23,562 nucleotides of DNA from a virus. The stretch spans positions 1-23,562 of the IMG/VR virus record IMGVR_UViG_3300010885_012372. The stretch is one strand, 5' to 3'. Positions 10,036 to 22,868 of the stretch are shown in pieces; position 1 is the stretch's first letter, and each line of letters starts with the position of its first letter. A program made the translations under genes and the position numbers. The notes below the pieces were generated by a model. It made no database searches and was not told where the DNA came from. It was given only the letters and a program-made list of their open reading frames with translations.

Positions 10036-10395
10036 ATGGCAACAACTTCAAGTCTACCAAATACTACAACTGAAACTCAGAAATTTTTTAATACCTCCAA
10101 TGGTAAGCAGTTCACGGTTGACTCTAATACATATAATCAAATATACAATTTTTTTAGAAGTAGAAGTACTTCTGATCTATCGGCACAACAGTTAACTCAA
10201 TATCTGATCATCATGACTTATAATAATAAATTAAATTCATTGGCAATTATTAATCAATTAGCAACTGATACCACGAATGATATTAAATCACTTGTTATCA
10301 CATTTTTTAATGGCACAAGAGATGCTTATAGTAAACTGGGTTTTTCTAATGCTAGTATAACCAACTATTGGGTAGATAGGAATATTATTGCGTGA
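10036..10395 (+). CDS. Conserved-looking phage protein of unknown function, 119 aa
   Basis: The protein begins MATTSSLPNTTTETQKFFNT and has a helical middle (YNQIYNFFRSR, LTQYLIIMTYNNKLNSLAII, IKSLVITFFNGTRDAYSKLGF), ending YWVDRNIIA. The LPNT-ETQKFF start and RNII end resemble a small protein I recall near tail and head-completion genes in T4-like marine phages, but I cannot give it a function. It has no Shine-Dalgarno; a perfect late box ends 5 nt before the ATG. Its TGA overlaps the GTG start of the gp4 homologue, so the two are translationally coupled. Confidence 0.75.
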   Translation: MATTSSLPNTTTETQKFFNTSNGKQFTVDSNTYNQIYNFFRSRSTSDLSAQQLTQYLIIMTYNNKLNSLAIINQLATDTTNDIKSLVITFFNGTRDAYSKLGFSNASITNYWVDRNIIA

Positions 10396-10844
10396 GCAAA
10401 TATTCCCAAGGAAAATTTACATTAAAAAATCCTGAAAAATATGCAGGTAAAGGTGCTCCCACATATCGCAGCAGTTGGGAGTGGGCTTTCATGAATTTCT
10501 GCGACAATCATCCTGCTGTAGTTAACTGGGCAAGTGAATCAATACATATACCTTATTTTAATCCATTTACAAAAAAGAATACGATATATGTTCCTGATTT
10601 TTTTGTGATGTATCAAACAAAAGATGGTAAACAAAGGGCTGAACTTGTTGAAATTAAACCTAGCGGCGAAGTAATGGAAACGGTAGGAAAAGGACAACGC
10701 AATCAAGCAATGGCAGTACTGAATCATTTTAAATGGGATGCTGCTCGTAAATGGTGTGCTAGTCAAGGAATGACTTTTAGAGTAGTCACAGAAGCAGACA
10801 TGTTTCATAACCCTAAAAAAACTAAGAAATTTAAAACTAGATAA
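10392..10844 (+). CDS. Head-completion protein with PD-(D/E)XK nuclease fold (gp4-like)
   Basis: At 150 aa it has the same length as T4 gp4 (150 aa) and shares its motif order: GKFTLKNPEKYAGK, TYRSSWEWAFMNFCDNHPAV, VNWASESIHIPYFNP, YVPDFFVMY, AELVEIKP and a C-terminal KWCASQGMTFRVVTE. The nuclease core is Glu30, Asp69 in VPDF, and Glu87-x-Lys89 in VEIKP, as in TnsA/PD-(D/E)XK enzymes. T4 gp4 (synonyms 50/65) completes filled heads before tail joining. The GTG at 10392 is preferred because it overlaps the upstream TGA (GTGA) and gives the full conserved N-terminus. All expected catalytic residues are present. Confidence 0.88.
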   Translation: MSKYSQGKFTLKNPEKYAGKGAPTYRSSWEWAFMNFCDNHPAVVNWASESIHIPYFNPFTKKNTIYVPDFFVMYQTKDGKQRAELVEIKPSGEVMETVGKGQRNQAMAVLNHFKWDAARKWCASQGMTFRVVTEADMFHNPKKTKKFKTR

Positions 10845-11314: not shown

Positions 11315-11893
11315 ATGAGAGCTTTCAGTGATTATCTCGTAGAGAGTACTAAGAAATACATGTTCCGTGTTAGGATTGCTACTGAACTAAGCAAAGAAAA
11401 CATGAGCAGATTAGAAGCAGTATTACAGAAATACGATTGTGATGGAATTAGTGAGCCAAAGCGTTTGCCAATACAACAAAAAGCATTTGGATTTGAGCAT
11501 CTAGATAATCCTGAAGTTTATATTGTTGATGTTGTCACGAACTATCCTTGTACTCCTATTGAATTACAAGCAGCATTTAATACAGCAGGCATACCATCAA
11601 GTTTGGTAATGGTAACAACACCAAATCAAGAAGTTTTAGTTGCACCTATTGCAAGCGAAGCAGACGATGGAAAAGCAATTCTAGACAAAGATCTTCCAAA
11701 AAATACTTACCCTCAGGTTCTTGCTGATTTAGAAACAGCATTGTCAAATAGGGAACCTAACAAGTATCAATATACATATGCTGCTAAAAAAACCAGCACT
11801 GGTAAGACTTCAAACGACTTGCCTCAAGGCACAACAAGCCCAATTGGTACCAAGCAAAATAAATTACCAACCTCTAGAAATATTAAGAAATAA
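11315..11893 (+). CDS. Probable head-associated protein with targeting-like N-terminus, 192 aa
   Basis: The first ten residues, MRAFSDYLVE, then S, match the plan of T4 internal-protein targeting peptides (MKTYQEFIAE in IPIII): a basic start, aromatic residue and (I/L)-x-E prohead-protease site. Cleavage would be after Glu10. The next part (YMFRVRIATELSKENMSRLE, AVLQKYD, IPSSLVMVTTPNQEVLV) looks like a compact alpha/beta domain of about 100 residues, and the last 60 are disordered and Lys/Thr/Ser-rich. I recall similar proteins next to prohead genes of T4-like marine phages, with no assigned function. AAGGA precedes the ATG. It is followed 12 nt later by another probable head-interior gene. 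Confidence 0.65.
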   Translation: MRAFSDYLVESTKKYMFRVRIATELSKENMSRLEAVLQKYDCDGISEPKRLPIQQKAFGFEHLDNPEVYIVDVVTNYPCTPIELQAAFNTAGIPSSLVMVTTPNQEVLVAPIASEADDGKAILDKDLPKNTYPQVLADLETALSNREPNKYQYTYAAKKTSTGKTSNDLPQGTTSPIGTKQNKLPTSRNIKK

Positions 11894-12720: not shown

Positions 12721-12736
12721 ATACTTAGAGGTAGTG

Positions 12737-14122
12737 ATGAAAAACAATTTTGACGAAAGTAAACTTCAATTTGAAGTAAAAAAGAAATTAGACGCTATCG
12801 GACCTGGGATGTGTGTATCCAAATGGAAAGAAGCGTCTATTTTATTGGAAAGCGGGCACAATCATAGTTGTCCACATCCAAATACTCATAAAACTCCACT
12901 CGAAGAACTAATAAACAATCCCAGTGCATTACACAACACAGTTTATAAAAAGGCTGTGCGTAAGCAAATGCTCGAGGGTATCAGACCTCACGAATGTCAT
13001 TATTGTCATAAAATGGAAGATGCACTGAATAAAGAAGGTGACTATTCCGACAGAGTAAATTTTAGTATGTGGGAATTTAGGAATGATCCTGCTATCATTG
13101 AAAAGATAGTCGAAGCAGGATATGAAGATGATGCTGTTCCCAGTAGGTTAGAAGTTAGTTTTTCTAATACCTGTAACTTCAAATGTAGTTACTGCTGCGC
13201 CGCTACAAGTTCAAGTTGGATGAAAGAAATAGAAAAACACGGCCCTTTTCCTGTTTCTACTAATACCGGAAACACCATCGAAAGCACTGTGCATGAAGAT
13301 AAGATGCCAATACCACCAGATCAATTTAATCCATATATCGATGCTTTCTGGAAATGGTGGCCGGACATATACAATAAGTTAAAGCAATTTAGAGTTACTG
13401 GCGGCGAACCGTTATTAAGCCCGCATACGTTCAAAGTAATAGATTACATAAACGAATTTCCTAACATTGATTTAGAATTAGGAATTAATAGTAATTTAGG
13501 TGTTCCAACAAAAATAATCGACCGTTTCATCGATAAAGTAAACGAAATAACATCTAACAATAAGATAAAATCTTTTTATGTTTGGACAAGTTGTGAATCA
13601 TATGGTAAACAAGCAGAGTATATACGAGACGGCTTAGTCTATGAAGACTGGATCAACAATGTTCGACGAATTTTAAACGAAATACAAAACTCAAATGTAA
13701 GAGTTATGACAACTTACTGTGCTATGTCTGTTATATCATATAAAAGATTTCTTGAGGATGTTTATGCATTAAAAGCAGAATTTCCTAATAGGGTATTACT
13801 AGACACGCATACATATCTAGAAAGTCCAATTTATTTGGCTGTTGATATTCTTACTAAAGATTTTATGCCCTACTTTGAAGAACAAGTAGAATTCATTGCA
13901 GAAAAACTTAAGGTTAATCTTGCTACTACGCATGAACTCTTTAGAGCACGTAGACAACTTCAATATTTTCAATACAAGTTAGATAATCCTCGTAAGGATA
14001 TTGCAGTCTTAAGAAAAGATTTTGCAATCTTCGTAGATGAACATGACAAGCGTCGAGATACTAACTTTCTAGAAACATTTCCTGAGATGAAGGACTTCTA
14101 TAACTTTTGTAAAAATGGGTAA
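12737..14122 (+). CDS. Twitch-domain-type radical SAM protein
   Basis: The 461-aa protein has the radical SAM cluster site C146-x3-C150-x2-C153 (SNTCNFKCSYCC) and the SAM-binding TGGEPLLS (about 221-228). The N-terminal region has Cys26 (GPGMCVSKW), Cys45 (SCPHP), then ALHNTVYKKAVRKQMLEG, and Cys87/Cys90 (HECHYC). This layout, with extra cysteines before the core and SSSWMKEIEKHG after the cluster, matches radical SAM proteins named for a twitch domain that I recall from marine phages and metagenomes. The N-terminal cysteines could hold a second Fe-S cluster. The substrate is unknown; no precursor peptide is obvious. The ATG at 12737 is preferred over GTG at 12734 because AGAGG is 5 nt upstream. 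Confidence 0.85.
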   Translation: MKNNFDESKLQFEVKKKLDAIGPGMCVSKWKEASILLESGHNHSCPHPNTHKTPLEELINNPSALHNTVYKKAVRKQMLEGIRPHECHYCHKMEDALNKEGDYSDRVNFSMWEFRNDPAIIEKIVEAGYEDDAVPSRLEVSFSNTCNFKCSYCCAATSSSWMKEIEKHGPFPVSTNTGNTIESTVHEDKMPIPPDQFNPYIDAFWKWWPDIYNKLKQFRVTGGEPLLSPHTFKVIDYINEFPNIDLELGINSNLGVPTKIIDRFIDKVNEITSNNKIKSFYVWTSCESYGKQAEYIRDGLVYEDWINNVRRILNEIQNSNVRVMTTYCAMSVISYKRFLEDVYALKAEFPNRVLLDTHTYLESPIYLAVDILTKDFMPYFEEQVEFIAEKLKVNLATTHELFRARRQLQYFQYKLDNPRKDIAVLRKDFAIFVDEHDKRRDTNFLETFPEMKDFYNFCKNG

Positions 14123-14130: not shown

Positions 14131-14484
14131 ATGAGAGCAAAAGAATTCATCTCCGAAACTTTAGCAAAAGCACATGCTGAGCAAATTGCTGCAATGAGTC
14201 CTAGTATGGTATTACATGATATGGATCCTGGCTACGAGTACTACAGATTTATGAGCATTGTAGCTGGGGATGATGAATCTACAATGAATCCAAAACACGA
14301 ACATTTTAATGCAACTCCTTTTGCTCTGGCATATACCCCTGAAGAACACGAAATGTTAATTCGTGGATTAAAAAGATTAGGTAAAAAACATAAAAAAGTA
14401 GCGAAAGATAAAAGTGGAGAGCACGACGAAGTTCATAGTGTAAGCCCTGTATCTAAAATTAAGAAAAACAAATACGGGGTATAA
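14131..14484 (+). CDS. Small head-targeted-type protein, paralogue 1 (117 aa)
   Basis: It begins MRAKEFISE then T, a near-copy of T4 internal-protein targeting peptides, with a prohead-protease-type site I-S-E after residue 9. The body has GYEYYRFMSIVAGDDESTM, then LAYTPEEHEMLIRGLKRLGK and a basic C-terminus ending SPVSKIKKNKYGV. The same plan recurs in the genes at 14487 and 15835: targeting peptide, Y-x-x-x-RF segment, YT-x-EE helix, then SPV followed by basic residues. That basic tail could bind packaged DNA. The function after delivery is unknown. The next paralogue follows 2 nt after its stop, indicating tandem duplication. Confidence 0.75.
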   Translation: MRAKEFISETLAKAHAEQIAAMSPSMVLHDMDPGYEYYRFMSIVAGDDESTMNPKHEHFNATPFALAYTPEEHEMLIRGLKRLGKKHKKVAKDKSGEHDEVHSVSPVSKIKKNKYGV

Positions 14485-14486
14485 AA

Positions 14487-14849
14487 ATGAGAGCGAATGA
14501 ATTTATAAAAGAAGACGAAAATGATTTCTCAGACTCAGCAAAGTCTGCTATGCCCAATGGTACAGTTTGGCCAGATCTCGATAACAGTAGCCCATACCAT
14601 GCGTTTAGATTTGGTGTTGCATTAGCAGGTAGTCCTGACAAAACAATGCCTAAAAATGGTCCAACAGGTCAGAAAATGGTAACTGTTGCTTATACAAAAG
14701 AAGAGCAGGATATATTAAAACAAACTGGGAAAAGAATGGGATTCAAATCAAAGCACATTGCTAATCCTCCAAGTCAAGAAACTAGCGATGTTTTAAAGGC
14801 AAGCCCTGTACCTCATAATAGTGGAAAGAAAATTAAAAGACGCTCTTGA
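14487..14849 (+). CDS. Small head-targeted-type protein, paralogue 2 (120 aa)
   Basis: It begins MRANEFIKE then D, again a targeting-like peptide with an I-K-E site. The body has SSPYHAFRFGVALAGSPDKT, VTVAYTKEEQDILKQTGKRMG and the tail SPVPHNSGKKIKRRS. The order of segments matches paralogue 1 at 14131 and is closest to that of the copy at 15835 (YHMYRFGVAMSKAP, VPYSDEEIEIVKRAGKTIG, SPVVHNTGKRKK). It probably arose by duplication and diverged fast. No better ribosome site is visible than GGGG 8 nt upstream. Its TGA overlaps the ATG of the next small gene. Confidence 0.75.
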   Translation: MRANEFIKEDENDFSDSAKSAMPNGTVWPDLDNSSPYHAFRFGVALAGSPDKTMPKNGPTGQKMVTVAYTKEEQDILKQTGKRMGFKSKHIANPPSQETSDVLKASPVPHNSGKKIKRRS

Positions 14850-15055
14850 TGGATGAACTCGAAAAACTTAAAAAACTTGCTGGTATTAAGACAGAAAGTT
14901 ATGGTCAAGTAACTAGCGAACGTGCCACGCATTTTCGTCAAATCGAGCGAGAACAAAATATACAACCCGGCACAGACGAATGGTTTCAATTATGGTTTAG
15001 TAAACCTTTGCTGACTGGAGAAATGCCAGTGGGTTTTCGATCTAGACGTAAATAA
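14849..15055 (+). CDS. Small KLAGI-motif phage protein, 68 aa
   Basis: The ATG at 14849 overlaps the TGA of the previous gene, so translation is coupled; a TTG one codon earlier is less likely. The protein begins MDELEKLKKLAGIKTESYG, an amphipathic helix ending in the KLAG motif shared by four other sites in this window. The second half reads NIQPGTDEWFQLWFSKPLLT and ends GFRSRRK. The IQPGTDEWF-LWF pattern looks familiar from marine T4-like phages, but I know no function. The N-terminal helix may be a prohead-targeting or assembly peptide by analogy with the others, which is inference. Confidence 0.65.
   Translation: MDELEKLKKLAGIKTESYGQVTSERATHFRQIEREQNIQPGTDEWFQLWFSKPLLTGEMPVGFRSRRK
15047..15054 (+). 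promoter_or_regulatory. T4-late-like box before the SGNH-like gene
   Basis: CGTAAATA has the TAAATA core (6 of 8) and overlaps the preceding stop codon. The ATG at 15071 lies 16 nt later, with AAAGGA between. Confidence 0.4.
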
Positions 15056-15070
15056 ATCAAAAAGGACAAC

Positions 15071-15805
15071 ATGAGAATAGGTTTTTATGGCGATAGTTTC
15101 TGCGAAAACTATCCAAGTTATAGTGAATGGGATACTTATCTAAAACAAATTGCAGATAATTATGGCATTGAACGCAAGCAAATAGTGAATTTTGGATTTG
15201 GCGGTTCTAGCATATGGGATACAATATTAATACAATTTGGATTTCATAATGCTTTTTCAATTGAGGATAGAACTTTTCCGGATGTGATGGTATTTGTCTG
15301 GACGGATGCCAGCAGGTTATTCAATAGGACCATTAGATCATTGAATATGAGTAGTACTTTTAATTCAGAAAAAATAGCAAGTCAGTATAAAGATAGCGCG
15401 GATATCATCGACGCAGCACAAAAATATTATACACATTTAGCAGATTTTATTAAGGAAGATTTTGCATATAATGCTGCATTAAGATATTTTGATCAAGAAG
15501 TATTATCTAACATATCTCATAGATGTAAAATTATACATCTCTGGTCCTTCTTTAAACCTAGCATGGAACTTTCCTCATATGACAGTAACAATTATTATTA
15601 TAGATGGAAGAATGGTATGGAAATAAGACCTGCTCTAATAAAACTTAGTTTATTAGGAATGGACAAAAATAAAGCGAGAGAAACTATGGGTTCAGATAAA
15701 AGAATAAATCATCTAGATGGCGATTATAAAAATTCTCTTTTAGCAAACACCATAATATCTGCTATCGATAATTACGAAAATGGTAAACTAATAACATATC
15801 TATAG
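15071..15805 (+). CDS. SGNH/GDSL-like hydrolase, 244 aa
   Basis: The first block is MRIGFYGDSFCENY with Gly7-Asp8-Ser9, the nucleophile block of SGNH hydrolases. The second is VNFGFGGSSIWD (39-50), supplying an oxyanion glycine. A strand VMVFVWTDASRLF (72-84) takes the place of the GxND block, but the usual Asn is replaced, so catalysis may differ. Near the end, RINHLDGDYKNSLLAN (211-226) supplies the candidate catalytic His214. Family members hydrolyse esters, often on sugars or lipids. In a phage this could modify surface polysaccharide or a virion protein, but no carbohydrate-binding part is seen. AAAGGA precedes the ATG. It sits between two members of the head-targeted paralogue family, splitting the array. 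Confidence 0.65.
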   Translation: MRIGFYGDSFCENYPSYSEWDTYLKQIADNYGIERKQIVNFGFGGSSIWDTILIQFGFHNAFSIEDRTFPDVMVFVWTDASRLFNRTIRSLNMSSTFNSEKIASQYKDSADIIDAAQKYYTHLADFIKEDFAYNAALRYFDQEVLSNISHRCKIIHLWSFFKPSMELSSYDSNNYYYRWKNGMEIRPALIKLSLLGMDKNKARETMGSDKRINHLDGDYKNSLLANTIISAIDNYENGKLITYL

Positions 15806-15813
15806 CATAAATA
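15806..15813 (+). promoter_or_regulatory. T4-late-like box (CATAAATA)
   Basis: This matches the late consensus at 7 of 8 positions, directly after the SGNH-like stop. The predicted start at about 15819 leaves a leader of about 16 nt with TAGGA before the ATG at 15835. Confidence 0.55.
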
Positions 15814-15834
15814 TTTCTGAGTAGGAATATTTAG

Positions 15835-16197
15835 ATGAGAGCCAAAGAGTTTATCAATGAACAAGAGCGCGATGTGAGTGGAGAACATTATTTTCCCTTG
15901 CCAAAACCTACTGCTGTGATTGTTCCAGATGCAAGTCAAAACTTCTATCATATGTATCGTTTTGGTGTTGCTATGAGCAAAGCACCTGAAGAAAATATCA
16001 ATATGGATGATCAAACTAATATTGCTGATAAACTTGAAATTGTTCCTTATTCCGATGAAGAAATAGAAATAGTTAAACGTGCAGGCAAAACTATAGGAGC
16101 AACACCAAAATTTATTAGTAATAAGGGAACAAAAGAAGAAAATGGGGGAAATATTGTTAGTCCAGTAGTTCATAATACTGGTAAAAGAAAGAAATGA
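15835..16197 (+). CDS. Small head-targeted-type protein, paralogue 3 (120 aa)
   Basis: It begins MRAKEFINE then Q, differing from paralogue 1 at a single position in the first nine residues, and has the I-N-E prohead-protease-type site. The body has NFYHMYRFGVAMSKAPEEN, EIVPYSDEEIEIVKRAGKTI and the basic tail SPVVHNTGKRKK. It is clearly the third member of the family at 14131 and 14487. It has its own late box and ribosome site. The serine hydrolase gene starts at the base after its stop codon, so the two are probably co-translated. Confidence 0.75.
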   Translation: MRAKEFINEQERDVSGEHYFPLPKPTAVIVPDASQNFYHMYRFGVAMSKAPEENINMDDQTNIADKLEIVPYSDEEIEIVKRAGKTIGATPKFISNKGTKEENGGNIVSPVVHNTGKRKK

Positions 16198-17250
16198 ATG
16201 GACATAAAAATATTTAAAAATATGGCCAGAGTCGCTGGCGGTAATGCATGTCTTTCTAAAAATTATAAACTACAACCCTCACATAATCCTCTTATATTAA
16301 CTAATAGATCCCCTGCAGAAAACGAATCTGCTATTTGCAATAGTTTTGATGATCTGTTTCGAAAAAATCCCTGTTTAAGTTTAATCGTATACAATAAAGG
16401 TAACATAATTTATGAAAATTATAGAAAACCTGCTTCAGAATCGTGTCCATTATTCTCTTGGTCAATGAGCAAAAGTTTAATTGCTTTTACGTTGGGATAC
16501 TTGTTGTCCGAAGGGATAATCGAAAACTTAAATGATACGGGATCGAAATACAGTAAGGATTTAGATGGTACTGTATTTGGAGAAACTAGTTTAAGAAATA
16601 TGTTAACTATGTCTAGTGGAGTAAGACGCAGCAAAGAAAATGGGAATCAATCTTTAACTGAGTGGCATGATATGACCAATGGCAGTTACTCCACGGTGGA
16701 TCATTTAAAAATTTATGGTAAAAAAGAAATGGAGCCTGGGCATTCTTTTAATTATAGTGGAACGGATACAGAAGCCATTTGTAATATAATAGATAATAAT
16801 GGTGGATTTTTAAATTATTTTGAAAAGTATATATGGCAACCTTCACAATGTGAAAACATGGGTTACTGGATGTTAGAAAAAAATGATAGGGCTGTAGCCC
16901 AAGCAGGATTTAGTGCTGTAGCAAGAGATTGGATTAGAATTGGTTTACATACAATTAGAGAATTAAAAAGTTCAAATACTATTGTTAGAAACTATATGAA
17001 AGAAGCAACATCGCCTCAGATTAGAAATAATAATATCCATGGAAATACTACATTAAGATATTATGGATATCAAACTTGGATAGGAGATTTTAACAAACAA
17101 ACCTCCTATTGGTTATGTGGTATGTCTGGAATACGATTGGGTATAGACCCAGTTAACGATAAGATCGTTTATGTTTGTTCTTATGACAGTACTAGTGATT
17201 ATGTAAAGCAAATATATAGAACATTCAATGATTTCCAGAACTTAATTTAG
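16198..17250 (+). CDS. Beta-lactamase-fold serine hydrolase (class C/NylB-like)
   Basis: The 350-aa protein shows LFSWSMSKSLIAFTLGYLLS with Ser89-x-x-Lys92 (the SxxK nucleophile pair), a DLDGTVFGETSLRNMLTMSS helix, and GHSFNYSGTDTEAI with Tyr186 as the second motif. WLCGMSGIRLGIDP near the C-terminus takes the place of the usual HxG or KTG strand. The set and spacing match the PF00144 beta-lactamase/esterase family, including 6-aminohexanoate-dimer hydrolase (NylB) and related amidases. No signal peptide is seen, so it would act in the cytoplasm or virion, and there is no reason to call it an antibiotic-resistance gene. It begins directly after the paralogue 3 stop and overlaps the convergent HNH gene by 9 bases. 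By eye it is AT-rich, suggesting an acquired gene. Confidence 0.78.
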   Translation: MDIKIFKNMARVAGGNACLSKNYKLQPSHNPLILTNRSPAENESAICNSFDDLFRKNPCLSLIVYNKGNIIYENYRKPASESCPLFSWSMSKSLIAFTLGYLLSEGIIENLNDTGSKYSKDLDGTVFGETSLRNMLTMSSGVRRSKENGNQSLTEWHDMTNGSYSTVDHLKIYGKKEMEPGHSFNYSGTDTEAICNIIDNNGGFLNYFEKYIWQPSQCENMGYWMLEKNDRAVAQAGFSAVARDWIRIGLHTIRELKSSNTIVRNYMKEATSPQIRNNNIHGNTTLRYYGYQTWIGDFNKQTSYWLCGMSGIRLGIDPVNDKIVYVCSYDSTSDYVKQIYRTFNDFQNLI

Positions 17251-17751
17251 GAATGGGATCCAACTTGGGTGTTTAATTTCGTAATTATGACTTTTACGCC
17301 GCGCTGACAACTGCCAATAATCAGGTTTAAATGGTTCTCTAATTGGCTTTTGATAGTTGTCCTTTTTCTCTTGATTGCAGGGCACACAAGCAGCAACACA
17401 ATTTTCCCAATTGGTCTTCCCACCCTTAGCACGAGGGATTACATGGTCAATTGTCAGTTCATGATGATCACATGTCTCGGCACAGTATTGACACTGGTAC
17501 AGATCACGTAGATACATGTTGATACGGCTAAATCTAACACCCTTCTTGAAGGCATGATAATCTTTAGTTATTGCAAGTGCTGGGACCATTAGTGTGGTGC
17601 TGGGGCTATGGACCACCCAATCATCGTAATATTCGATGACTTCGATTCGCTCCATGAACTGGAGCTTGATAGCCTGTTGCCAATTAATAACAGACAGCGG
17701 TAACCAACTAAGGGGCTGCCAGTTAGCATTGAGAATTAGAGTTGCTGACAT
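17242..17751 (-). CDS. HNH endonuclease with zinc ribbon, 169 aa
   Basis: Read leftward, it begins MSATLILNANWQPLSWLPLS and has CQYCAE (Cys87, Cys90), LTIDHVIPRAKGGKTNWENC (the HNH core with Asp102-His103 and Asn117) and ACVPCNQEKKD (Cys122, Cys125). The four cysteines would hold one zinc. The N-terminal LN-x-x-WQPL-W segment is typical of a free-standing HNH family found in bacteria and phages. Possible roles are homing, DNA packaging help or host-DNA cutting. It is on the opposite strand to its neighbours and by eye has a higher GC content than the accessory genes, suggesting separate origin. A TGTAAATA late-type box ends 6 nt before its ATG. Confidence 0.88.
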   Translation of the reverse strand: MSATLILNANWQPLSWLPLSVINWQQAIKLQFMERIEVIEYYDDWVVHSPSTTLMVPALAITKDYHAFKKGVRFSRINMYLRDLYQCQYCAETCDHHELTIDHVIPRAKGGKTNWENCVAACVPCNQEKKDNYQKPIREPFKPDYWQLSARRKSHNYEIKHPSWIPFLN

Positions 17752-17842: not shown

Positions 17843-19399
17843 ATGAGCGGTGTAGACGAACTAATTAAAAAACCATTTACGAAGATGGCATATACTCTCG
17901 AAGAGATAATTCATCTTCAGAAGTGTGCTGATCCTATAACTGGTCCCATGTACTTTATGGAGAATTTCTTCTATATACAGCATCCCTTGCGTGGTCGTAT
18001 TAAGTTTGTGCCTTTTGATTATCAGATTGAACTAATCGAAAATTATCACAATAATCGTTTCAGTATCAATATGTTGGGCAGACAGATGGGCAAGACTACT
18101 TGTGCTGCTGGATATTTGGTTTGGTTTGCTATGTTTATTCCAGACTGTACTATACTTATTGCTGCGCACAAGTACACAGGTGCACAGGAAATCATGCAGC
18201 GTATTCGTTATGCTTATGAAAGTGTTCCAGACTTCATTAGATGCGGTGTTACAAGTTATAACAAGGGCAGCATCGAGTTCGATAATGGTAGTCGCATTGT
18301 TAGTGCTACAACGACTGAAACTACCGGTCGTGGCATGAGTATCTCACTGCTATATTGCGATGAGTTTGCCTTCGTCAGGCCTACTATTGCCCGTGAATTT
18401 TGGACATCTATTAGTCCTACGCTATCAACTGGTGGTAAAGCAATTGTTACTAGTACTCCAAACAGTGATGAAGACCAGTTTGCTACTATTTGGAAAGTTG
18501 CTAACCAAAAGTTTGACGATTATGGTAACGAAACTCCTCTAGGTAAAAATGGCTTTGCTCCGATCATGTTCCCGTGGAATAGACATCCTGAACGAGATAC
18601 AACTTGGGCAGATCAAGAACGTGCAAGTATTGGCATTGATAGATTTAGACGCGAGCATAATTGTGAATTCATTATCTTCGACGAAACACTTATTGCTCCA
18701 AGTAAATTAGCAACTATGGAAGGTGTTAATCCAATTGAAAAACAAGGTCAAGTTCGATGGTATGAAAAACCTGTTAAAGGTCATGTTTATGGTGTGGCCC
18801 TTGACCCTAGTTTGGGTACTGGCGGCGACCCAGCTGCTATACAAGTATGGAATTTTACTACAATGAAACAAGTTGCTGAATGGCAGCACAATTTAACAGT
18901 TATTCAGCGACAAGTTGCTATAATGAGTGAGATATGTAGGTATATCTTAGAAATAACCGAAGACCCTGCAAACTTATACTACAGTGTAGAGAATAACACC
19001 ATTGGCGAAGCATCGCTCAATGCAATAGCTGATATAGGTGAAGAGATGATTGCTGGTAATTTTCTAAGCGAACCTAGAAACGGCGGCCCAATGAGATACC
19101 GCAAAGGATTCAATACCAGTCATCGAAGTAAAATTGCTGCTTGTGCTAAGATGAAACTATGGGTTGAAACAGATAGGATGACGGTTAGAAGTAAAGGTCT
19201 GATCAGTGAACTTAAGAACTTTGTTGCAATAGGCAATACTTATAAAGCAAAAATCGGCGAAACAGATGATTTAGTAATGTCAACATTGTTAATCATTAGG
19301 ATGTCGATGATGCTTAGACAATATGATGCTGATCTAAGTGAAAATTTAACAGATACATTGGACGATGTTATAGAACCAATGCCATTTATGATAGTTTAA
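17843..19399 (+). CDS. Large terminase subunit (gp17-like), ATPase and nuclease
   Basis: The 518-aa protein has the full packaging-motor set. These are Walker A GRQMGKTT (79-86; T4 has SRQLGKTT), Walker B LLYCDE with Asp173 and catalytic Glu174, and coupling motif STP (204-206). The RNase-H-type nuclease triad is Asp321 in ALDPSLGTGGD, Glu383 in YSVENN and Asp475/476 in ETDDLVMS. T4 gp17 is 610 aa, so this is a shorter version, missing mainly N-terminal sequence. It pumps DNA into the prohead and cuts the concatemer. The ATG at 17843 has no Shine-Dalgarno. The gene ends overlapping the convergent leftward gene by 4 bases. The putative small subunit lies far upstream, unlike T4. Confidence 0.96.
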   Translation: MSGVDELIKKPFTKMAYTLEEIIHLQKCADPITGPMYFMENFFYIQHPLRGRIKFVPFDYQIELIENYHNNRFSINMLGRQMGKTTCAAGYLVWFAMFIPDCTILIAAHKYTGAQEIMQRIRYAYESVPDFIRCGVTSYNKGSIEFDNGSRIVSATTTETTGRGMSISLLYCDEFAFVRPTIAREFWTSISPTLSTGGKAIVTSTPNSDEDQFATIWKVANQKFDDYGNETPLGKNGFAPIMFPWNRHPERDTTWADQERASIGIDRFRREHNCEFIIFDETLIAPSKLATMEGVNPIEKQGQVRWYEKPVKGHVYGVALDPSLGTGGDPAAIQVWNFTTMKQVAEWQHNLTVIQRQVAIMSEICRYILEITEDPANLYYSVENNTIGEASLNAIADIGEEMIAGNFLSEPRNGGPMRYRKGFNTSHRSKIAACAKMKLWVETDRMTVRSKGLISELKNFVAIGNTYKAKIGETDDLVMSTLLIIRMSMMLRQYDADLSENLTDTLDDVIEPMPFMIV

Positions 19400-20316: not shown

Positions 20317-22629
20317 ATGGCAGGCATTGAACAAGCAGCAAACGACTTATTTTTTAAGTTAAGAAATCGTTTCCCCCGTATAACAATGGGGGATGAGGAC
20401 AGCAACGCGACAACTAATCCACCTGATGCAAGATTCTTTAATTTTGATTACGAAGAGAATGAAATCAAATTTGGAAATGTAACAGCAAGTTTAGTAGACA
20501 GCGAGAACCTTAAAGTTTACTTCAGTCAAGATATTAGCAAATATATGGACCGAGAGGAAAAGCAAGGTTGGTATAAATTTCTTAAAGAATTAAGACGATT
20601 TGCTAAAAGTCATTTGCTAGGATTAGATGTCAGAGACATCACCAAAGATATACTTACTCATGAGGATTTGAAATTCGTGTCAAACCAAAACAAAGAAAAG
20701 TCCCGTAAATCTCAGATTGGCGAAAGCAAGATATTATGGGCACGTCGTGGCAAGGTAAGCGAAGGCAACCTTAACAATGTAAAGATTCATGTTGTACACA
20801 GCGAACGTATGATTGAAAATACAAATAATAGATTATTAAAAGTTGATAGAATTTTCCTTGTCAATGAATCGGGGGAGAAGTTCCTATTACCATTTAATAG
20901 TCTCATGGCTGCTAAAGCAATGGCAAACCATGTTGGCAGAGGTGGAACACCATATGACAGCAATGGCAGACTTATTAGTGATGCAGTGATGGAAATGTCA
21001 AATCTTCGTCGTTTTGCTAGTGCTACACGTCGCAAGACTTTTGAAAGCGAAGACGCTGTTCATGTAATCGAAGCAGCAGCAGCAATTAAAGAAAGTTTAA
21101 AGCGTGGTTTGTTCCGTTTAGCAAACAATAGCCGATTCGATGAGAATCTTGAAGATTTAAGTAAAATATTGGCAGAACAAGATGACATTGACGACATTAA
21201 GCCAATGTTTGTTCAACAGGTTTACAATGAAAATTTAGATAATTGGATCAACAGCGCCGCTAAGGCCTACAAACAATATAAGGGAAATATTATGGAAGCT
21301 CTAAGAGAATCGGCCGGCGCAGTGTCATCAAAATTAAAAGATCCCGATTTTAAACTAGTATTAAAAGATGATCCTTCAGAAGATAGACTAATTGCTAGTA
21401 GCAAGTATACTGATGGTCGTGCTTTACTACGTCGAATTTTAGGAACTATATCAGATCGTATTGGCATGGAAGATAGCGAAATTGCAAATTGGGCAAGCCA
21501 AATCGGTCAAGATATAGAAGAAGGCAAGGCATCAAGAGAAGACATGCAAATTGCTCTTCAGTTGGCAAAGCGTTATCAAGATGATCTTAAGAAAATACAC
21601 GATGATAAGTCATACTCAAAAGAAGTTCGTGTTGCTGCATTTGGCAAGAAAAAAGATCTTTATGGCAAAGTAAAAGATGAATCTATGGAATTTGAAAATT
21701 ATGTTAATGGCATTGGTGAAGAAGAAATGCTTGTTAATGACAAAACTGACGAATGTGGAATGGAAGTAGATGATATGAGTGATGGAAGCATGAGCCCAAT
21801 GAGTAATATGCATCAGCCAAACGGCCAAGACGGCAAAGTAAATGTAAGTACAAATTCAAGCAGCGATGGGCATAAGTCTATTAATGTATCAGCAGACGGA
21901 AAAGCAGCAACTGAATTGGCTCAAATTTTGAAGATGGCAGGGTTAGGCCCAGTAGTTGGCGGTAATGATGCAGGTCATGGCGAAATAGAAATTTCACAAC
22001 AAAGTATGGAAGATGAATCAATTGAAGAAGGTCCAACATCATCACCTATGGATAGAGTACAGCAGCGTGTGGCAAGTAGAGATACAGGCAATACAGCAAT
22101 TGAAAGAGTAAGTGAAAGAGTATCATCACGTAGTCCTATTGAAAAAGTCAGCGAAAGAGTTGCTGCTAGAACTTCAAAAGAACCTGTTGCTGAAGAAGGC
22201 GATGAAGATAATGGCTTGCCAAACAAAAGCAAGTGGGAATATGATAAAGAAGGCGATATGGCAAAAGATCAAATCCATTCAATCGTTAGACATGCAGAAG
22301 AACTTGAACATTCCTTAGGGGATGATGAAAATCTTCCTGAATGGGTGCAGGAAAAGATGGCTCAGATTAAAGGCATGATGACTAGTGTAAGTGATTATAT
22401 GTTGACACAGCATGAACGTGGTGCAGAAGATCGCACAGGCAAAGAAGGTATTCATGGCGATGACATGGAAGAAGGCAATGAATTTTCAGGTGCATTAGCA
22501 AAGGCAAAAGCATCTCATCAGGATAAATTTGAAGTTGATGGTAAAGAATATCCTGTTAAAGAAGGTATTGATGTAAATACAATCAATGATAGTTTGGCTC
22601 TTATGAAAAAATTAGCAGGATTAAGATAA
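20317..22629 (+). CDS. Large mosaic, probable head-associated structural/scaffold protein, 770 aa
   Basis: Residues 1-460 look folded and mostly helical (MAGIEQAANDLFFKLRNRFP, FLKELRRFAKSHLLGLDVRD, LLKVDRIFLVNESGEKFLLP, DGRALLRRILGTISDRIG). The rest is a chain of short modules: an acidic Met/Ser-rich linker; INVSADGKAATELAQILKMA with a KMAGL motif; three Arg/Val repeats from about residue 577 (MDRVQQRVASR, IERVSERVSSR, IEKVSERVAAR); DENLPEWVQEKMAQIKGMM (about 671-690); and NEFSGALAKAKASHQDKFEV. The C-terminus is SLALMKKLAGLR. Several modules look familiar from unrelated proteins of marine myoviruses. I infer a role in head assembly or as an internal protein, but no T4 homologue is certain. 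The start lies 4 nt after a late box, with no Shine-Dalgarno. Confidence 0.75.
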   Translation: MAGIEQAANDLFFKLRNRFPRITMGDEDSNATTNPPDARFFNFDYEENEIKFGNVTASLVDSENLKVYFSQDISKYMDREEKQGWYKFLKELRRFAKSHLLGLDVRDITKDILTHEDLKFVSNQNKEKSRKSQIGESKILWARRGKVSEGNLNNVKIHVVHSERMIENTNNRLLKVDRIFLVNESGEKFLLPFNSLMAAKAMANHVGRGGTPYDSNGRLISDAVMEMSNLRRFASATRRKTFESEDAVHVIEAAAAIKESLKRGLFRLANNSRFDENLEDLSKILAEQDDIDDIKPMFVQQVYNENLDNWINSAAKAYKQYKGNIMEALRESAGAVSSKLKDPDFKLVLKDDPSEDRLIASSKYTDGRALLRRILGTISDRIGMEDSEIANWASQIGQDIEEGKASREDMQIALQLAKRYQDDLKKIHDDKSYSKEVRVAAFGKKKDLYGKVKDESMEFENYVNGIGEEEMLVNDKTDECGMEVDDMSDGSMSPMSNMHQPNGQDGKVNVSTNSSSDGHKSINVSADGKAATELAQILKMAGLGPVVGGNDAGHGEIEISQQSMEDESIEEGPTSSPMDRVQQRVASRDTGNTAIERVSERVSSRSPIEKVSERVAARTSKEPVAEEGDEDNGLPNKSKWEYDKEGDMAKDQIHSIVRHAEELEHSLGDDENLPEWVQEKMAQIKGMMTSVSDYMLTQHERGAEDRTGKEGIHGDDMEEGNEFSGALAKAKASHQDKFEVDGKEYPVKEGIDVNTINDSLALMKKLAGLR

Positions 22630-22640
22630 GGAATTATAAA

Positions 22641-22868
22641 ATGAGCGATACATTAAACTTAATGAGAAAACTGGCTGGATTAGAAACTTCAGAAATTACC
22701 GAAGCTAGTATGGATCCCGAACAGATGCGTAAGATTGTAGCCATGGCTCGTCAAATTCAAGATGACGCTGAATATATTGCATCATCTGTGTCAGCAGGTA
22801 AACCTATCAATCCAAATTTAGTTAAGCAGATTGAAGGCAATCTAATGGCAATTAAACAATCAATGTAA
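22641..22868 (+). CDS. Small KLAGL-motif protein with prohead-protease-type site, 75 aa
   Basis: It begins MSDTLNLMRKLAGLETSE, followed by ITEAS: a KLAGL helix and then an I-T-E site with Ala next, the preferred form for T4-type prohead protease (gp21) cleavage. The remaining 54 residues form an amphipathic helical protein (MRKIVAMARQIQDDAEYIAS). The N-terminus closely resembles the last residues of the preceding 770-aa protein (SLALMKKLAGLR), suggesting a copied module. AAGG lies 10 nt upstream. It is the last gene before the terminator at 22906. It may be an internal head or core peptide, inferred from motifs only. Confidence 0.7.
   Translation: MSDTLNLMRKLAGLETSEITEASMDPEQMRKIVAMARQIQDDAEYIASSVSAGKPINPNLVKQIEGNLMAIKQSM

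Follow-up and report, generated by a model that had tools for sequence, protein, structure and literature searches.

The internal proteins of phage T4 are the classic case of proteins that are packed into a phage head by means of a short address peptide, and T4 Alt is an ADP-ribosyltransferase that is packaged and injected. To our knowledge, most internal proteins of the T-even phages still have no assigned function. For IPIII of T4, the first ten residues are enough for targeting to the head, with residues 4 and 7 weighing most in targeting and residues 8 and 10 in cutting, and the T4 protease gp21 cleaves after (L/I)-x-E (PMC9026906). IPIII also purifies together with the gp22 core and has an effect on the morphogenesis of the head (PMC9026906), and Ip1, Ip2 and Ip3 of T4 are inhibitors of GmrSD restriction enzymes, each of a different one (PMC12373910). 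Between T-even phages, internal proteins show strong variation (PMC3012670, PMC9026906). In SPN3US and phiKZ, a gp21-related protease cuts head proteins behind a glutamate, at A-X-E or S-X-E sites (PMC5694885).

Here we describe three genes, A, B and C, from the window, by which we mean the whole stretch of DNA that was analysed: an entire IMG/VR record of 23,562 bases, which is a fragment of an uncultured, T4-related jumbo myovirus. Their products start with MRA-x-EFI-x-E, and we consider it very likely that this tag is a capsid-targeting sequence and that A, B and C are processed internal head proteins. Like T4 IPI, IPII and IPIII (MKTYQEFIAE or MKTFKEF...TITE), they carry a short N-terminal EFI-x-E peptide with an (L/I)-x-E site, are small, occur several to a genome and belong to phages that encode a gp21-type protease. 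In contrast to the T4 proteins, their peptide falls one residue short of MKTYQEFIAE and has no aromatic residue at position 4; unlike T-even internal proteins, A, B and C are also syntenic, and PHROG, PDB and fold searches with their bodies recovered no relative of known function. The propeptides of SPN3US and phiKZ head proteins are mostly far longer than the 10-residue tag, and their cut motif is different.

The three tagged genes, their family and their genomic setting

The genes and tags in question, together with two landmarks of the surrounding gene block, are as follows.

10392..10844, plus strand: head-closure protein (PHROG 218, E 1.2e-40), part of the structural gene block
14131..14484, plus strand: gene A, 117 aa, paralogue group A, tail KIKKNKYGV, paralogous to B and C
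14131..14157, plus strand: tag A, MRAKEFISE, gp21-type cut predicted after E9
14487..14849, plus strand: gene B, 120 aa, paralogue group B, basic tail HNSGKKIKRRS, paralogous to A and C, modelled with AlphaFold2
14487..14513, plus strand: tag B, MRANEFIKE, gp21-type cut predicted after E9
15835..16197, plus strand: gene C, 120 aa, paralogue group C, basic tail HNTGKRKK, paralogous to A and B
15835..15861, plus strand: tag C, MRAKEFINE, gp21-type cut predicted after E9
17843..19399, plus strand: large terminase, which ties the fragment to the T4-related jumbo phages

The closest terminases are those of Pseudomonas jumbo phages in the PA5oct/Paride group (53% identity), followed by Phosso, Atu_ph07 and GAP32, and PA5oct gp291 to gp280 have the same gene order as the window. 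Structural and other genes of the window comprise an Ad2 connector, a dNMP kinase, a tail sheath, two tail-tube proteins, the head-closure protein and the large terminase. Between the structural block and the terminase the window holds extra genes, namely a radical-SAM gene, the three tagged genes, a small protein gene, a weakly GDSL-like gene, a beta-lactamase-family gene and an HNH gene. The radical-SAM gene (12734-14122), the weakly GDSL-like gene (15071-15805) and the beta-lactamase-family serine hydrolase gene (16198-17250) are interspersed among the tagged genes; of these three, just the beta-lactamase-family serine hydrolase was found at the corresponding place in the close relative L004. 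The HNH endonuclease gene (17242-17751, minus strand) lies just upstream of the terminase, a position that is kept in ten related loci. The family sits amid head, neck and tail genes, at two syntenic positions.

The original prediction had read MRAKEFISE, MRANEFIKE and MRAKEFINE at the starts of open reading frames 14131, 14487 and 15835, and its coordinates proved correct, with all three frames on the plus strand. A, B and C are true paralogues over their full length (B/C 37%, E 6e-22; A/B 35%, E 8e-15; A/C 27%, E 5e-07). The common body plan that had been proposed for them holds for R41-F42, Y69, E72-E73 and S106-P107-V108, which are invariant in all three, but the basic tail that was part of it is clear in only two of the three: the net charges of the last 25 residues are +4, +4 and +1. 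Predicted isoelectric points are 9.6, 8.0 and 6.3 (family median 8.15), and the mature length would be about 110 residues.

A search of viral contigs yielded at least 287 relatives. With a profile of the body only, 192 distinct members were identified in the set of loci searched, 168 with the strict tag and 17 with a looser one; the share of 168 in 192 is too high, since the tag formed part of one seed of the search and of one subsequent scan. Among paralogues that had not been used as search seed, 39 of 47 carry the strict tag, and of the 16 members reached only via the terminase, nine have the strict tag, four another head-type peptide and three neither. Genomes commonly encode two to four divergent paralogues. 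Orthologues of gene A occur in L004, L006, L008, L012, L024, L025, L047 and L069, and the order A-B-C is kept in at least seven other loci (L006, L008, L012, L024, L025, L047 and L069). The identities between orthologues of A, B and C (36-62%) lie in the range of the neighbouring structural proteins. Order and identities being kept across loci, A-B-C looks like a conserved component, and rapid body change as in the T-even internal proteins was not found among close relatives. The conserved order is no less compatible with a conserved component inside the head than with an anti-restriction gene that changes fast.

No match was obtained in isolated phages by tblastn with five family members, and a profile search found no family member in the more distant jumbo phages PA5oct, Phosso, Atu_ph07 and GAP32. 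In contigs of bacterial and archaeal genomes there were 43 matches to the pattern, and none of them was a relative. Judged by sequence comparison, A-B-C is a real, widespread protein family, undescribed in the libraries searched. An in-frame fusion of the family domain with a nucleotidyltransferase-like protein occurs twice (L070:4526-5818 and L150:8905-9717), with MRAQEFIKE at the junction in L150 and RAIAE-GG in L070, both of which are possible internal protease sites.

The N-terminal peptide as a putative head address

In the 79 related loci, a regular expression for the tag matched the starts of 103 out of 1,321 genes and none of 7,341 internal methionines, and in 17 records the tag DNA pattern gave 26 matches as compared with none for the reversed pattern. 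Codon usage within the tag covers all four alanine, five arginine, both phenylalanine, both glutamate and all three isoleucine codons; as synonymous codons vary at each conserved position past Met1, the peptide and not the DNA is the conserved unit. Information averages 3.4 bits per position over residues 1 to 9 and amounts to 0.8 bits at residue 10 and 0.5 bits at residue 11. E9 is followed by alanine, serine, glycine or threonine in 48% of cases, a modest preference for small residues. Cleavage after E9, as predicted for example in the tag-bearing peptide MRAKEFISETLAK, is very probable, and in some close relatives members of group A start with MRLFEFSKSL, which has no (I/L)-x-E site. The MRA form of the tag retains the phenylalanine and lacks an aromatic residue at position 4 (T4 numbering); both T4 targeting aromatics (4 and F7, T4 numbering) are found in a further gene of the window described below and in family members of L263 and L266.

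The same tag heads at least 84 distinct proteins outside the family, at least 82 of which fall into at least 33 clusters in an all-against-all BLAST, carried by phages of which not every one is typed as T4-related. Recognised bodies include GH19 proteins, some of them also with LysM, GNAT acetyltransferases, an ADP-ribosyltransferase, a ParB-N protein and kinase-like proteins, and two further tagged proteins have HExxH motifs, which were spotted by eye. The ADP-ribosyltransferase-domain protein (L207:6640-7242, E 9.5e-13) represents the same kind of cargo as T4 Alt; in contrast to A, B and C it stands outside the family, and the comparison with Alt is by type of domain. Candidates for packaged tagged enzymes are L207:6640-7242, L090:1501-2829, L105:1501-2289, L107:991-1527, L112:1501-2391 and L024:11999-12499, which comprise the ADP-ribosyltransferase, a LysM and GH19-like lysozyme, two HExxH proteins, a DUF5591 protein and a GNAT.

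Conversely, bodies of the family can carry other head-type peptides. They start with MKTFLEYLAEA in L266, where the body is 55% identical to a family member of L047, and with MKTFLDYLAEA in L263, where the next paralogue starts with MKINEIIIEG. In T4 (NC_000866), IPII and IPIII start with MKTYQEFIAEA and gp24 with MAKINELLRES. The T4-like form of the peptide was found at 31 gene starts in the family loci as against none of 10,174 internal methionines, and most of these 31 belong to the family of a fourth tagged gene of the window, which was absent from the three listed in the original prediction. This gene and a small gene next to gene B are located as follows.

11315..11893, plus strand: fourth tagged gene, in T4 register, MRAFSDYLVE-S, 192 aa (PHROG 14802, virion structural protein, E 1.8e-5)
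14846..15055, plus strand: small gene, 69 aa, starting with MDELEKLKKLAGI, adjoining gene B, present in 23 of the 79 family loci

The peptide of the gene at 11315 matches the T4 register exactly, with aromatic residues at positions 4 and 7, leucine at 8 and glutamate at 10, and its orthologues start with MKTYKDYLFES, MKTFTEYLTES, MKNFKDYLAES and similar peptides. The orthologues also include PA5oct gp282 and the phrog_14802 virion structural proteins, at the corresponding place in the structural block. PA5oct differs from the window in the absence of the A-B-C family and in the N-terminus of gp282, MKSFRDYYDAS, which is without an x-x-E site. The record of gp282 carries an ESI-MS/MS note; tag-like N-termini occur in two of the 93 PA5oct proteins with such notes and in one of the other 305, an enrichment that is not significant, and the notes do not amount to a clean virion list because metabolic enzymes are among them.

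Relatives of the small gene bear LxxLAGI, MKIRDIITE or MRASEF N-termini on one and the same body. Since MKIRDIITE or MRASEF can take its place there, the LxxLAG(I/L) motif may be a second head-targeting signal. It was observed at the N-termini of small proteins, such as those of window genes 14846-15055 and 22641-22868, and also at the C-termini of the scaffold-like protein and of a virion structural protein, and in the window at the C-terminus of 20317-22629; scaffold genes with the motif lie beside gp21 in L118, L119, L121 and L122.

A gp21-type protease (Peptidase_S77) was detected in seven of the 17 records that carry the family, among them all five longer than 200 kb; the 14 control genomes had none. 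The original prediction had proposed looking for a gp21-like protease elsewhere in the genome, and the window itself is a fragment that ends short of the corresponding region. Where the neighbours were read, the genes that follow the protease gene are a scaffold-like one and that of the major capsid protein, and the capsid precursor contains RKYLAE-A or RKYLSE-S, possibly a similar cut site. In summary, the proposal of a T4-like targeting peptide is strongly supported by the modularity of the tag, its exchange on the same body, the drop in conservation past E9 and the gp21-type protease, and the assignment of the first nine residues as a putative variant of the T4-type capsid-targeting signal is well supported in silico.

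Bodies and C-terminal tails

An AlphaFold2 model based on 144 relatives shows helices at residues 36-48 and 71-84; residues 1-10 and the last ten are modelled with low confidence, most of the body with high confidence. A fold search with it gave no match in the PDB and, in BFVD, one uncharacterised phage protein of equal size (A0A6J5KNQ7, E 3e-5); no relative of known function was recovered for the bodies in PHROG, PDB and fold searches. Two weak matches were judged to be due to chance, namely a lone marginal S-layer match in the PDB sequence profiles (E 0.0023) and a Myb-like Pfam match on gene A (20.3 bits versus a cut-off of 24.4), the latter because it is absent from B and C.

As to the C-terminal tails, paralogues at the same locus, in which body similarity is hardly detectable, have the same tail type in 83% of pairs as compared with 33% of pairs between loci at equal body similarity, figures to which shared ancestry of the whole clade contributes and for which the tail types were named by eye. 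These tail types were found on 183 family ORFs and on just three other ORFs. It follows that the C-terminal tail tracks the genome and not the body, a pattern that would be accounted for by gene conversion at the 3-prime ends or by selection through a single common partner. Divergent paralogues within a genome have a tail type in common (FKGY, KNKYGV, NSGK or NW), for example in L036, L039, L064, L066 and the window, and orthologues in other genomes differ.

Possible roles in the head and in the host

We propose that A, B and C reside inside the head of a T4-related jumbo phage as internal proteins, in which MRA-x-EFI-x-E would carry the precursor into the prohead core and the gp21-type prohead protease would then cut after E9. 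The mature protein of about 110 residues, with a compact helical body and a flexible, often basic tail, would stay in the head with the DNA and, at infection, exit with the DNA like the T4 internal proteins. We regard packaging of A, B and C into the head as highly likely, and their ejection into the host as fairly likely.

As to the function of the mature body, the notion that it is a conserved internal head component binding DNA or the core comes close to an even chance, and it is the one to which we lean slightly. A lesser but substantial possibility, and one that is compatible with a head component, is that the packaged and processed bodies are host-takeover or anti-defence proteins that act in the new host cell, e.g. 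by inhibiting restriction or another early defence. There is a precedent in T4 Ip1 to Ip3, anti-restriction proteins with such peptides (PMC12373910), and the tag also heads plausible effector enzymes such as the ADP-ribosyltransferase, GNATs, kinase-like proteins and GH19 lysozymes; the divergent paralogues, commonly two to four per genome, would likewise suit injected effectors. However, the retention of the A-B-C order in at least seven other loci, at identities like those of structural neighbours, argues against such a role, as does the lack of a homologue of known function for the bodies. It is also possible, with a slightly lower probability, that the tag binds the prohead core and that the proteins serve in assembly or DNA condensation only, with no ejection. 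The conserved synteny and copy set would agree with this, and so would the association of IPIII with the gp22 core and its effect on head morphogenesis (PMC9026906) and the tail type shared by paralogues of one genome, as if they had one common partner. Yet many tagged enzymes have no obvious role in assembly, and the family is absent from at least four isolated jumbo relatives and is thus not generally essential.

Much less probable are explanations in which the tag has no part in targeting. Tandem duplication copies any N-terminus, and since A, B and C are paralogous, their common start might simply be a relic of duplication or a feature of translation initiation; this is very unlikely, as unrelated bodies bear the tag, all synonymous codons are used, conservation ends at E9, and other head-type peptides substitute for the tag on the same body. 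A pure artefact of paralogy or of start codons was rejected on account of the unrelated tagged bodies, the codon variation and the placement of the tag (103 versus 0). Lower still, and hardly credible, is the idea that the tag is a leader peptide and that A, B and C are precursors modified by the neighbouring radical-SAM protein. In the window, the radical-SAM gene immediately precedes gene A, but a match to radical-SAM was found in just 5 of the 79 family loci, and the body modelled by AlphaFold2 is a folded domain, not a short core peptide. This idea was rejected, L004 being without a radical-SAM match beside its tagged genes.

If, as we propose, the tag is a head address, it would provide a sequence rule for cargo in uncultured giant phages, and the question of which proteins are injected would become a search problem. 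The occurrence of the tag on dozens of unrelated proteins would offer a way to list the probable packed and delivered cargo of these phages, and it already points to enzymes that are candidates for host takeover (ADP-ribosyltransferase, kinase-like, acetyltransferase, lysozyme and protease-like proteins); the tag peptide could also be used to bring foreign proteins into the heads of jumbo phages. More speculatively, an exchangeable head address (MRA-x-EFI-x-E, MKT-F/Y-type or MKIN-type) might load a broad arsenal of injected effectors in uncultured T4-related jumbo phages, in which A-B-C would represent a new class and the genome-matched tail would imply a second, genome-specific docking step.
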